In this document: positions 13,980 through 62,884 of the stretch, in pieces
Layout: the number at the start of each line of letters is the position of its first letter
Position numbering within the stretch: position 1 is the first letter of the stretch
Source: Salinibacter pepae
GTDB lineage: Bacteria; Bacteroidota; Rhodothermia; Rhodothermales; Salinibacteraceae
Assembly (NCBI RefSeq): GCF_947077775.1
Contig: NZ_CAMTTE010000001.1
Location: forward strand, 124,001-188,000
Length of the DNA stretch: 64,000 nt
Reading direction: 5' to 3'
Translations under genes and position numbers: made by a program
The notes under the pieces: generated by a model
Databases searched by the model: none
What the model was told of the DNA's origin: nothing
What the model saw: only the letters and a program-made list of their open reading frames with translations

Positions 13980-14059
13980 AGATCAGGAACGAACGGGTGA
14001 TGTGGTCTGAACGCCCCTCAGGTGAGGGACGACGGAAGCGCTTCCTAATGGACGCAACG

Positions 14060-14971
14060 CTAGTCCAGGAGGTCCATCTGATACTGCTTGGGCGTCACGC
14101 CCTCATGCTCTTTAAACATATCGATGAAGTGACTGGTGCTGCTGAAGCCCAGGGCGTGGCTCACGTTGGTGACGGTGTTGTCCGAATCCGCCAACAGCTC
14201 CCGCGCCCGGACGACCCGCTCCCGCGTGATGTACTCCAGGGGGGACATCTCAAATTCGTCGCTGAAGTGCCGGTAGAAGCTGGACTTGCTCATGCAGGCC
14301 TCCTCGACCAGTTCATCGATCGAAATGTGCCGGTCGAGGTTGTCCTGGATGTACTGCACGGCCGCGGCCAATCCGCCAGCGGAGGTGTTGCGGGGCAGCT
14401 TCCCGACGAGAAGGGGGCGCGACGCGGTCTGAAGCATTTGAATGAGCAGCTCCATCGCGTTGAGGTCGATCAGGCGGTCGCGGTTCGGGGGATCCTCCCG
14501 GAACAGATACGCGACCATGTTCAGCACGCGGGCGATCCCTTCATTTTCCGGCACGTGAAAGTAGGCGTGGTCGTCCCTCCCCCCTTCCTGCACCGCGGGG
14601 CCCGACGGCACGTCGCTCGCGACACGATCGAGAATGGAGCGAACCTGCGACCGGTCGATCCGCAGCACCACGTACCGGGCCGGGTCCTCGTGCGCCGCAG
14701 GAAAGTCGACCGTGATCGTCTGCAGCGGGGGCACGACCAGCGACTCGCCCGCCTCAACGGCAAGCCCTTCTTCGCCCTCCACGTCGACCCGGGCCGTGCC
14801 GTCGACCAGCCCGTAGTACGTCAGGTGCGGGGCCCGGAGGGACACGCCGCGGGCCGACTCCTCGACGGCATAGAAGGAAAGCCGTGCGTCGTCTCCGCCC
14901 ACGCCCAGTCGGTAGTTGACGAGAGAGTCGGACGCCTCTCCGTACGGGGTTGGCCGAAAGGATCGGGACAT
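14060..14971 (-). CDS. AraC-family transcriptional regulator, likely activator of the glycerol genes
   Basis: The 303-residue protein has an N-terminal sensing domain (about 1-190) of the AraC_N type. Its C-terminal AraC DNA-binding domain has two helix-turn-helix units: ISIDELVEEACMSKSSFYRH near 225 and VTNVSHALGFSSTSHFIDMF near 270, ending in GVTPKQY. The ATG at 14971 was chosen because the longer frame upstream reads through the divergent promoter region and its repeats. It is divergent from glpK. Two 66-bp elements in the glycerol genes have 21-bp-spaced half-sites, as AraC-family proteins require, so it is the obvious candidate activator; its ligand might be glycerol or glycerol 3-phosphate. 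Confidence 0.9.
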   Translation of the reverse strand: MSRSFRPTPYGEASDSLVNYRLGVGGDDARLSFYAVEESARGVSLRAPHLTYYGLVDGTARVDVEGEEGLAVEAGESLVVPPLQTITVDFPAAHEDPARYVVLRIDRSQVRSILDRVASDVPSGPAVQEGGRDDHAYFHVPENEGIARVLNMVAYLFREDPPNRDRLIDLNAMELLIQMLQTASRPLLVGKLPRNTSAGGLAAAVQYIQDNLDRHISIDELVEEACMSKSSFYRHFSDEFEMSPLEYITRERVVRARELLADSDNTVTNVSHALGFSSTSHFIDMFKEHEGVTPKQYQMDLLD

Positions 14972-15009
14972 GAGCCTGGGGGTGCATGAATGCAGTCGCG
15001 AACACCAGT

Positions 15010-15045
15010 TCGTGGTGTGGAGCCCATTTGTGGTGTGGAGCCCAA
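15010..15045. repeat. Two-copy 18-bp tandem repeat beside the araC start
   Basis: GTGGTGTGGAGCCCA occurs at 15012-15026 and 15030-15044, 18 bp apart, about 40 bases from the regulator's start codon. It could be an autoregulatory site or simply a replication-slippage duplication. Confidence 0.75.
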
Positions 15046-15166
15046 GTCGTTGATCAGCGCCTGTTCCGCCCCGTCGGGTGAACAGTCCGATGGGACTGCC
15101 GATGTACATTTAGTGCAGGGTAGAAGATATACGGACCCATCGGACAAAAACCAGAGGGGGCGAGGA

Positions 15167-15232
15167 TTTGGGAAGATGGAAGCATTTTCTCGGAAGATCA
15201 TACTACCGACTCGAAAAAGCGCTTCCTATACT
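15167..15232 (+). promoter_or_regulatory. Conserved 66-bp glycerol promoter element, copy 1 (glpK operon)
   Basis: The segment shares its exact length and most bases with 21552-21617. It opens with TTTGGGAAGATGGA, has GGAAGAT at 15171-15177 and again at 15192-15198 (start to start 21 bp, two helical turns), and ends with AAAAGCGCTTCCTATACT. TATACT at 15227-15232 is a good -10 hexamer, and no good -35 lies 17 bases before it, as expected for an activator-dependent promoter. The glpK start is 265 bases downstream, beyond a long leader with tandem repeats. Binding by the divergent AraC protein is inferred. Confidence 0.75.
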
Positions 15233-15384
15233 TCGTTTGCGACGAAAGGGTGGGAACAGGACCAGGCATGTCCCGAATCGTAGCAGGTCCCCGTTCGGGG
15301 CCCTCCACGGCGAAAGCCCTTCCACCGTGCCGTCGGCGCCCGACCGCATGGTCCCAACACCGTGGCGTACAGACTTTCCCGCAC

Positions 15385-15480
15385 CGGGCTGACTTCCAAA
15401 CGGGCTGACTTCCAAACGGGCTGACTTCCAAACGGGCTGACTTCCAAACGGGCTGACTTCCAAACGGGCTGACTTCCAAA
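15385..15480 (+). repeat. Perfect six-copy 16-bp tandem repeat in the glpK leader
   Basis: The unit CGGGCTGACTTCCAAA is repeated six times without a mismatch and ends 16 bases before the glpK ATG. It lies downstream of the predicted promoter, hence in the untranslated leader. Perfect identity implies recent expansion and likely copy-number variation between strains. Because 16 is not a multiple of 3 and the array is untranslated, any effect would be on transcription spacing or mRNA structure. Confidence 0.95.
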
Positions 15481-15496
15481 GACGTCAATCCAACCC

Positions 15497-17077
<1,581 letters not shown>

Positions 17078-21551: not shown

Positions 21552-21617
21552 TTTGGGAAGATGGAATCATTTTCTCGGAAGATTAGACTATCGATGAAGA
21601 AAAGCGCTTTCTATACT
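21552..21617 (+). promoter_or_regulatory. Conserved 66-bp glycerol promoter element, copy 2 (glpV)
   Basis: This is the twin of 15167-15232. The first 32 bases differ at a single position, half-sites GGAAGAT are at 21556-21562 and 21577-21583 (again 21 bp), and AAAAGCGCTTTCTATACT ends at 21617. The middle is less conserved while the total length is identical, as expected for a regulator site and a -10 box held at fixed spacing. It is placed to drive glpV. Confidence 0.75.
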
Positions 21618-21775
21618 GCCCCCTAGACTGACGAAGGCAGCCGCGACCGCCCCGCCTGGGCTGCGGAAGCGCTTACGGGGCCCTCGAGACGGGTCGTGTC
21701 CAATGGGGCGCTCCTTTGTTCTTCGACGCCTGATCGTCCTCAACGACTTTTTTCATTACCAACGGTGGCTTTGTT

Positions 21776-23611
21776 ATGAGCACCTCCTACCAACCCCATG
21801 CGCCGCGCCGCGGCTGGCTGATGCCAGTCGCCCTCTGCGTCGCGGCCCTCCTCCTCCAACCCCTCGCGTCCGCGCAGGCGCAGGACTTTCCCGATGAGCC
21901 CAACTATCCCGACATCACGCGGGAGGAAGCCCGGGAGTATGCCCAGAGCGAGTACGGCCCCATGAACGACCGCAAGCGGGCCGCGGTCAAGTACGCGATG
22001 GAGTTTCAGCCGTCGGTCCTCACGCTGAAGGAGCAGATCGACGAGCTGATGTGGTTCGCGGAAAATGCCGAGCAGCTCCGCGGGACCGACGTCGAGTCGG
22101 TGGCCGAAACGATCAAAACCCACACGTGGGAATCGGAGACGCTCGCCGACGCCTTTACCGAAATCACGGGCATTAACGTGACCCACAACATCATCGGCGA
22201 GGGCGACCTGGTCGAGAAGCTCCAGACGCAGCTCGCGTCCGGCCGGAGCGTCTACGACATTTACGTCAACGACGCCGACCTCATCGGCACCCACATCCGC
22301 CTTCAGAGCGCGGTCAACCTGACCGACTACATGAACGGAGCGGGCAGCGAGTTTACAAACCCGACGCTCGACCTGGACGACTGGATGAACCCGGAGTTCG
22401 GCCAGAATTTTGAGGGCGACCAGATTCAGCTCCCGGACCAGCAGTTCGCGAACCTCTATTGGTTCCGGTACGACTGGTTCAACGACCCGGAGATCAAGGA
22501 GCAGTTCCGGAACGAGTACGGCTATGAGCTGGGCGTGCCCCGCAACTGGGCCGCCTACGAAGACATCGCCGAGTTCTTTACCGAGTCGGTCTCCCCGTCC
22601 GACGTGGGCGCCGAGACGGAGGGCGTGTACGGCCACATGGACTACGGGCGCCGGGGGCCGTCCCTTGGATGGCGTTTCACGGACGCCTGGCTCTCAATTG
22701 CGGGCGCCGGCGACAAGGGCCTTCCGAACGGCCGCCCCGTGGACGAGTGGGGCATTCGGGTCGAAGACCGCATCCCGGTCGGCTCCTCGGTGGATCGCGG
22801 CGGCGCCACAAACGGCCCCGCGGCCTACTACGCCACCCAGAAGTACGTGGATTGGCTGAACGACTACGCCCCACCCTACGCCCCGTCCATGAGCTGGTCG
22901 GAAGCCGGCCCGGTGCCCTCTCGCGGCAGCGTGGCGCAGCGCGTCTTCCAGTACATCACCTTCCTCTCGGCCGAGCCCTTCACCTCGCCGGAGTCGGCGG
23001 TGACGGACGACGAGGGCAACCCGAAGTGGCGCGTGGCCCCCACGCCCCACGGCCGCTACTGGGACGAGGGCATGAAGGTCGGCTACCAGGACGCCGGAAG
23101 CTGGACCATTCCGAAGCAGACCACCGGCGACAAGCGACACGCCGCCTGGATGTGGGCCCAGTTTGCCTCCTCCAAGACGGTCTCGCTCAACAAGTTCAAC
23201 GTGGGCCGGACGCCCGTCCGCAGCTCCACGGTCAACTCCGAGTACTGGCAGGAGCGCGAGGGCGACCTCGGCGGCCTGATTTCCTTCTACACCTCCCCGG
23301 TGGAGGACCAGTGGACGGACTCAGGACCGAACGTGCCCCACTACCCCCTCCTGGCCGAGCAGTGGTGGAAGCAGGTGGCCAGCGCCGTGACCGGCGAGAA
23401 GACCGTGAAGCAGGCGATGAACGACCTGGCGAGCATTCAGAACTCGCTGATGGACCGCCTGCGGATGGCACAGTACTCCCCCGATCTCAACGAAGAGCGC
23501 ACCCGGGAGTACTGGCTCAATCAGCCGGGCGCCCCGAAGGCCGAGCGGCCCCCGGAAGAGCCGGAGACCGTGCCGTACGATGAACTCCTCAAGCAGTGGG
23601 AGGGGGAGTAG
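21776..23611 (+). CDS. glpV: Glycerol ABC transporter substrate-binding protein GlpV
   Basis: This 611-residue exported binding protein has an N-terminal signal (RRGWLMPVALCVAALLL, cleavage likely after AQA near residue 40) and a family 1-type extracellular binding fold with many Trp and Tyr. It is longer than usual MalE-like proteins (about 420) and close to the large binding proteins of rhizobial glycerol operons. Position after DUF2160 and the shared promoter element support the assignment. No lipobox is present, so it would be periplasmic. Ligand specificity is inferred from context. Confidence 0.85.
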   Translation: MSTSYQPHAPRRGWLMPVALCVAALLLQPLASAQAQDFPDEPNYPDITREEAREYAQSEYGPMNDRKRAAVKYAMEFQPSVLTLKEQIDELMWFAENAEQLRGTDVESVAETIKTHTWESETLADAFTEITGINVTHNIIGEGDLVEKLQTQLASGRSVYDIYVNDADLIGTHIRLQSAVNLTDYMNGAGSEFTNPTLDLDDWMNPEFGQNFEGDQIQLPDQQFANLYWFRYDWFNDPEIKEQFRNEYGYELGVPRNWAAYEDIAEFFTESVSPSDVGAETEGVYGHMDYGRRGPSLGWRFTDAWLSIAGAGDKGLPNGRPVDEWGIRVEDRIPVGSSVDRGGATNGPAAYYATQKYVDWLNDYAPPYAPSMSWSEAGPVPSRGSVAQRVFQYITFLSAEPFTSPESAVTDDEGNPKWRVAPTPHGRYWDEGMKVGYQDAGSWTIPKQTTGDKRHAAWMWAQFASSKTVSLNKFNVGRTPVRSSTVNSEYWQEREGDLGGLISFYTSPVEDQWTDSGPNVPHYPLLAEQWWKQVASAVTGEKTVKQAMNDLASIQNSLMDRLRMAQYSPDLNEERTREYWLNQPGAPKAERPPEEPETVPYDELLKQWEGE

Positions 23612-23845: not shown

Positions 23846-25057
23846 ATGTCTCAATTTACGATTTCAAGGACCTCAAACGCTTTTTTTCAATGGCTGACCG
23901 CCGGCGCCTTTGCCCTTCTGCTTCTCGTGGCAACGGCGGTGCCGGCCCAGGCGCAGATGGAGGACGGCGAGCTGCCGGAGATTGACTTCGCGGTCAACCT
24001 GATGCAGTCCGCTCAGTCCATTTCCGTGGATGGCTTTCCTGGAGCGGTGACCGGGTTTCATCGTGCTCGTGCTGGCCTGAATGCCAGCGTCCAGTTCTCA
24101 GAAAATGTGAGCGGCCTGCTGATGCTGGAGCAAGAGCCAAATGATTTTGGCGGCCAGTTTGGGCTTGGGCCGTCGGTTGACTTCATGGTGATGAACATGC
24201 AGGTCAGTGAAGGACTGACCGTTCAAGCGGGTACACCCGTTACTGGCCTCATGCACTTCCGCGGCTTCTCAGATGGCCCCGTGGTTCAGGGAAACCCTCT
24301 CATCGGAAACTCACCGGCCGACATCATCACTGCCGGTCAGGGCGTGAAGTTGATTGGATCGTACGGAGGGTTCGGGTTCGACCTGACCGCGGCGAAGACC
24401 TTTGGAGAGAACCTGACCACGTTGGGTGAAGGCTCCACCGGTGTGTGGTTGATTGGAAATGCCACGTACGCTGTCTCCGACGTGCTGCAGGTCGGGGCTG
24501 GCCTTGCGGGCGCAACGGGCCAGGAGACCATGGACTTTGCCCGAGGCGACCGTGAGAACATCAACCTGAACCCCGAACAGCAGAACCCCAGTGGGGGCTT
24601 TATTGACCAGTCCAAAAATACCCACGCGGCCCTTCCGAATGGCGGATGGATCACGCAGGTGGACGCCAAGATCACTCCGAGCCCCCTGGACATTGACCTT
24701 TGGGGCGGCTACGCACAAGACAGCGAGGTGGACGGCACGAATGATGCTGCCGCGGCCTTTGGTGGTCTCGGTGCGAAAGTCGACATCACGGAAAGCTTCT
24801 ACCTCGCCGGTCGCTTTGTGATCGTCAGTGACCAGGGCGACGCCATCGACAATGCCTCCGGTGACCCGGACGGCAACCTTACCCGTTTCGAGGGAGGAAT
24901 TGGGGTGCAACTTTACGACCACGCCCTCCTGAAGGTGTCCGGTGTCACGCAGAGCCACGGGGATAGCTTCAGTGCCGCTCAGGGAACGCCCGTCACCCGC
25001 CCGGCGCCGGCCGACAGCTTTGCTGGCGTCCTGACGGAGCTCTCCTTCAGCTTTTAA
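23846..25057 (+). CDS. Predicted outer-membrane porin of the glycerol island
   Basis: The 403-residue protein has a signal peptide (GAFALLLLVATAVPAQAQ). The mature chain alternates polar and hydrophobic residues, has many Gly and aromatic residues and ends in LSFSF with a C-terminal Phe, as in outer-membrane beta-barrels. I recognise no named family. The ATG at 23846 gives a clean signal peptide; an upstream in-frame extension runs through the intergenic hairpins. It lies between the glycerol binding protein and glpD, so a glycerol-permeable channel is the natural guess. Its codon use is visibly less GC-biased than its neighbours, suggesting transfer or high expression. Confidence 0.7.
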   Translation: MSQFTISRTSNAFFQWLTAGAFALLLLVATAVPAQAQMEDGELPEIDFAVNLMQSAQSISVDGFPGAVTGFHRARAGLNASVQFSENVSGLLMLEQEPNDFGGQFGLGPSVDFMVMNMQVSEGLTVQAGTPVTGLMHFRGFSDGPVVQGNPLIGNSPADIITAGQGVKLIGSYGGFGFDLTAAKTFGENLTTLGEGSTGVWLIGNATYAVSDVLQVGAGLAGATGQETMDFARGDRENINLNPEQQNPSGGFIDQSKNTHAALPNGGWITQVDAKITPSPLDIDLWGGYAQDSEVDGTNDAAAAFGGLGAKVDITESFYLAGRFVIVSDQGDAIDNASGDPDGNLTRFEGGIGVQLYDHALLKVSGVTQSHGDSFSAAQGTPVTRPAPADSFAGVLTELSFSF

Positions 25058-30276: not shown

Positions 30277-30311
30277 TCCCAACACCTCAGCTCTTCCCAA
30301 CACCTCAGCTC
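30277..30311 (+). repeat. Two-copy 18-bp tandem repeat directly before fadI
   Basis: TCCCAACACCTCAGCTC occurs at 30277-30293 and 30295-30311, the second copy ending one base before the fadI ATG. Like the glpK array it occupies the leader next to the start codon. Confidence 0.85.
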
Positions 30312-62845: not shown

Positions 62846-62884
62846 TTTTCACAAGGATCGGTTTTTTTCACAGCGATCGATTTT
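62846..62884 (+). repeat. Imperfect two-copy 19-bp tandem repeat before the DapA-family gene
   Basis: TTTTCACAAGGATCGGTTT (62846-62864) and TTTTCACAGCGATCGATTT (62865-62883) follow one another and end about three bases before the ATG. The arrangement is like those before glpK and fadI but more diverged. Confidence 0.6.

Follow-up and report, generated by a model that had tools for sequence, protein, structure and literature searches.

A six-copy 16-bp tandem array in the glpK leader of Salinibacter pepae, a candidate minisatellite in a regulated glycerol operon

The glycerol locus and the array before glpK

The window analysed here is a stretch of 64,000 nucleotides of the Salinibacter pepae genome, and all coordinates are counted from its first letter. 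It contains a glycerol locus that occupies both strands. The minus strand encodes a fructose bisphosphatase, an NAD-dependent glycerol-3-phosphate dehydrogenase and an AraC-family regulator, and the plus strand encodes, in this order, glpK, two ABC ATPases, two permeases, a DUF2160 membrane protein, a solute-binding protein (21776-23611) and an FAD-dependent glycerol-3-phosphate dehydrogenase. The product of glpK (15497-17077, plus strand) matches the NCBIfam models TIGR01311 (735 bits, cut-off 590) and NF000756 (820 bits) and the Pfam domains FGGY_N and FGGY_C. The TIGR01311 score identifies it as glycerol kinase, the key glycerol enzyme that an earlier note on this DNA had placed behind the repeat. 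The divergent AraC-family gene (14060-15109, minus strand) was assigned from its HTH_18 (6.9e-24) and AraC_N (3.2e-6) matches and from its orthologs; its start is uncertain and possibly lies near 14974. An 18-bp tandem duplication (15009-15044, 17/18 identical) is found near the 5' end of this gene, where the sister genome G005 has one copy. A 398-residue protein without a Pfam match is encoded at 23861-25057, after the solute-binding protein gene and before that of the FAD-dependent dehydrogenase. It has a signal-peptide-like start and, as a guess, may serve the glycerol locus as a porin in the outer membrane.

The leader of glpK carries six perfect head-to-tail copies of CGGGCTGACTTCCAAA (15385-15480, plus strand). 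Tandem Repeats Finder (TRF) reports a period of 16, 6.0 copies, 100% match and 0% indels, and the sequence itself confirms that six identical units end exactly 16 bases before the glpK ATG (15497), as the earlier note had described. With units of 16 bp, the array falls within the range of about 10-100 bp of minisatellites. Six exact matches to the unit compare with 0.67 matches expected in shuffles when up to 3 mismatches are allowed, and Markov shuffles of 1.26 Mb contained no perfect repeat with a period above 10. Across all 3 contigs of the genome (3.63 Mb), only these six copies and one hit with 2 mismatches elsewhere were found. The unit is thus unique to the glpK leader, and a reading as a dispersed or mobile element was rejected. 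Translation of GlpK from a start farther upstream, through the array, was also rejected, since the last unit contains an in-frame TGA 27 nt ahead of the ATG. The Rfam search of the leader gave no match to a known structured RNA up to E=1. Among the papers found on Salinibacter and glycerol kinase, tandem repeats or glycerol transcription, no title or opening of an abstract describes the array.

Conserved control elements upstream of the array

A promoter element of 65-70 bases (15168-15235, plus strand), conserved in the genus and ending in TATACT (15227-15232), precedes the leader. It shares 96-97% identity with the corresponding elements of G005 and of a second relative, G002, whereas the leader before the array is only 72-84% identical. 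The array would start about 145 nt downstream of the presumed transcription start near 15239-15241, in a leader with a predicted length of about 257 nt. This agrees with the proposal that it is untranslated and downstream of the promoter. A sigma-70 consensus scan and a terminator scan of 15000-15600 found neither, and the transcription start is therefore a putative one. A second copy of the element (21552-21617, plus strand) lies before the solute-binding protein gene and has neither a tandem array nor the array unit.

Within the first element, the direct repeat GGAAGAT-N14-GGAAGAT (15171-15198, plus strand), with a spacing of 21 bp, is a candidate AraC-type operator. In the whole genome the exact motif occurs twice, both times in the glycerol locus. 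The element was found in eight genomes of the genus, and an ortholog of the AraC-type regulator lies nearby in all eight; in G006 and G010 the element is missing, as is a close adjacent ortholog. The regulator is more diverged in G003 and G004, and a variant of the element is seen in G004. Given this co-occurrence and the two exact genomic sites, the direct repeat is most likely the operator of the divergent AraC-type regulator, although we infer both the operator and its binding by the regulator from conservation and co-occurrence only.

LacI-type palindromes built around AAGCGCTT are found at 14034-14045, 15215-15226, 15312-15323, 21600-21611 and 21665-21676. They mark three promoters of the glycerol locus and are paired at two of them, the one at 14034 preceding the gene for the NAD-dependent glycerol-3-phosphate dehydrogenase. 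At glpK, AAAAGCGCTTCC (15215-15226, plus strand) lies immediately 5' of TATACT and GAAAGCCCTTCC (15312-15323, plus strand) lies in the leader and is kept in most relatives; the palindromes at 21600 and 21665 accompany the second copy of the element. Such pairs would allow repression by looping, and the genome codes for four LacI-family proteins. At glpK, all of these conserved control elements precede the array. Its assignment to the AraC- or LacI-type operators themselves was rejected as a main reading: the operators are separate from it and remain conserved in relatives that have only one unit or a degenerate one.

Copy number in the genus and tandem repeats in the genome

Orthologous leaders were compared between this genome, its sister G005 (about 95% identical in aligned stretches), G002 and G001, with one genome per species. 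They contain six units here, two in G005, one in G002 and a single diverged stretch matching the unit at 10 of 16 bases in G001. The distance from the promoter element to the ATG is 330, 267, 251 and 250 nt, respectively. The longest leader thus equals the shortest plus five units (330 = 250 + 5 x 16), and the rest of the leader is colinear. In G002, GACGTC directly follows the only unit, which is the ancestral single-copy state; here, the last unit and the start-proximal spacer read GACGTCAATCCAACCC (15465-15496, plus strand). Leader lengths that step by 16 nt between colinear flanks indicate that the array grew recently from one ancestral unit, and the one-copy state kept in relatives makes the history of the array readable. 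The view that this repeat expands and contracts, put forward from the perfect identity of its units, is therefore borne out between species, and the array behaves as a minisatellite in that its copy number differs between related genomes.

The extra copies carry no substitution, while the adjacent leader differs by 16% from G005. The probability that 80 bases remained unchanged is about 0.002 at the rate of this leader (about 8% per lineage) and about 0.14 at the genome-average rate. The growth of the array is thus most likely recent, or else the copies were homogenised.

These counts could be questioned if the true array were shorter or longer than six copies, tandem repeats being named as a known source of assembly errors in part of the literature (PMC6868369). 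We consider such an error quite unlikely. The genome is assembled in 3 contigs with 99.97% completeness, an ordinary short read is longer than the 96-bp array, and two copies were found independently in the sister genome. The array is real and specific to this lineage, and it is most likely recent.

The start-proximal unit is identical in this genome, G005 and G002, and the leader that precedes it is not: compared with G002, the unit matches at 16/16 bases and the leader before it at only 72%. A single start-proximal unit may thus be under constraint, on the strength of a post-hoc observation on a short stretch. This full conservation would also suit a multimerised binding site, in which each unit would be bound by a DNA- or RNA-binding protein and the number of copies would set occupancy. 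The AraC-type regulator is an example of such a binder, as the reverse complement of the unit, TTTGGAAGTCAG, loosely resembles the GGAAGAT half-site. However, this match extends to only 5 of 7 bases, the period of 16 differs from the 21-bp spacing of the proposed operator, and the unit is absent from the second promoter that shares this operator. In G001, moreover, the unit is degenerate despite the presence of regulator and operator. A multimerised site is very unlikely on these grounds.

Similar arrays are not restricted to glpK. In 1.264 Mb, about a third of this genome, we found 30 perfect tandem repeats of period 14-16 with up to 6 copies, the glpK array having the most, and none of these periods in Markov shuffles of the same sequence; few perfect repeats had periods of 13 or 17-23. 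According to a simple GC-frame gene call, 20 of the 30 are intergenic, though 79% of the sequence was called coding. Where repeats of 14 and 16 bp fall in called ORFs, they are close to the 5' ends of these ORFs, and those of 15 and 12 bp are tolerated within ORFs, a placement that matches what is expected for real duplications filtered by selection. In the window, further short tandem repeats are seen at 30277-30311 (18 bp x 1.9, perfect) and at 62846-62884 (19 bp x 2.1, 85%).

Five other arrays were aligned to G005, and all have fewer copies there, which is partly expected since they were picked in this genome. A 400-kb sample of G005 contained one repeat of period 14-16 (the glpK pair) and four of period 13, a 400-kb sample of G006 contained no perfect repeat of period 14-16, and 568 kb of mixed bacterial sequence (genomic contigs with distant glycerol kinases, taken from the GlpK scan) contained seven. 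Repeats of period 14-16 are apparently denser here than in G005 and G006; the four period-13 repeats of the sister sample make the contrast between the present genome and G005 suggestive rather than firm. It would suggest that the lineages differ in how they form or keep short tandem duplications. With many similar arrays across the sampled part of the genome, the glpK array appears as one product of a general process.

Consequences of copy number and comparison with known systems

The earlier note had further proposed that the number of copies tunes glpK mRNA structure, stability or translation and serves as a bet-hedging switch. Such a phase-variable device would give rise to clonal variants in glycerol use. 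The perfect identity of the copies and the 6/2/1 difference between species do indicate recent change, and a precedent exists in the lpdA-glpD2 promoter repeat of Mycobacterium tuberculosis, which varies within isogenic populations (PMC12817950) and whose copy number is reported, in a citation within PMC6455211, to affect lpdA transcription. In order to evaluate this proposal, the leader was folded with 0 to 12 units and the opening energy of positions -16 to +15 was computed. The predicted values, which apply to standard conditions without the high salt of the cell or RNA-binding proteins, are 5.3, 7.6 and 8.9 kcal/mol at 0, 1 and 2 copies. They saturate at 3 copies and remain at 9.0-9.2 kcal/mol for 3 to 12 copies. 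Opening energies predicted for the G005 and G002 leaders likewise level off. Start-site accessibility is thus predicted to be flat over a wide range that includes the present six copies, and this speaks against tuning. Going from one unit to two shifts the predicted energy by about 1.3 kcal/mol here and by 0.4-0.5 kcal/mol in the other two leaders, so that copy number may have a small effect when there are few units.

The arrangement of the control region argues in the same direction. The repeat neither overlaps the promoter nor alters its spacing, the element at 15168-15235 is untouched, and added units leave the positions of the operators relative to the promoter unchanged. The array is outside the conserved cis elements, and comparable 14-16-bp arrays throughout the sampled genome point to a general mutational process; neither tuning nor bet-hedging is supported by these observations. 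What support a switch has comes from the position of the array and its variability between species, and we regard a tuning device as unlikely. The stronger version, a contingency locus in which slippage at a high rate would shift GlpK output post-transcriptionally with each change and produce clonal glycerol-use variants, has a decidedly slim chance of being correct.

Copy number could also act through an upstream ORF, by setting the distance from its stop to glpK and hence reinitiation. A 46-codon ORF does start at 15268 and ends at a TGA inside the array, 88 nt before glpK, and the leader ORF of G005 also stops in its own array. However, the stop lies at -88, -40 and -72 in three species, the frame is not conserved and the ORF is absent in others. 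Since the unit itself carries a TGA, any frame closes within three copies. This reading was rejected as highly improbable.

We favor, with a probability of about 0.75, the interpretation that the array is a near-neutral minisatellite, and as such a VNTR candidate, located in the leader of a glycerol operon under regulation. It would have arisen when 16 bp of the glpK leader were duplicated, and further copies would have brought it to six in this lineage, replication slippage or unequal recombination being the most likely mechanisms. Control of the operon would be exerted upstream of the array, where an AraC-type activator site and two LacI-type operators are proposed. With each unit gained or lost, the length of the leader would change by 16 nt in a tolerant stretch, probably with little effect on expression. 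The array is accordingly a candidate typing marker at a metabolically central gene.

The regulation that surrounds the array resembles that of GliR (PA3027) of Pseudomonas aeruginosa, an AraC-type activator of glycerol and glycerolipid genes (PMC8151288). There too, the AraC-family gene is divergent from its target operon, and two binding motifs are present, one of them overlapping the -35 region. The regulator and the target genes are different, and the likeness touches the surrounding regulation, not the array.

In M. tuberculosis, glpK variants are coding changes, the length of a homopolymer shifting the frame of GlpK. This phase variation (PMC6667613) shares with the present locus a repeat-driven change at the glycerol kinase gene, but the array described here does not code for protein, and changes in its length leave the GlpK frame intact. 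Most similar among known systems is the lpdA-glpD2 promoter repeat of the same species (VNTR 3690), whose copy number also varies among isolates (PMC12817950). According to PMC12817950 and PMC6455211, its unit is 58 bp, located 12 bp upstream of lpdA and proximally upstream of a leaderless promoter. Both are noncoding tandem repeats a few bases before a glycerol-metabolism operon, with copy numbers that differ between genomes. They differ in that a 58-bp promoter repeat varies within populations in M. tuberculosis, whereas the repeat here, a 16-bp unit within a leader predicted at about 257 nt, varies between species. If the copies did tune GlpK, an environmental bacterium would possess a form of the tuberculosis glycerol phase switch that works after transcription, and, as a contingency locus, the array would parallel the glpK and glpD2 repeats of M. 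tuberculosis from a noncoding position in the leader, in a halophile.
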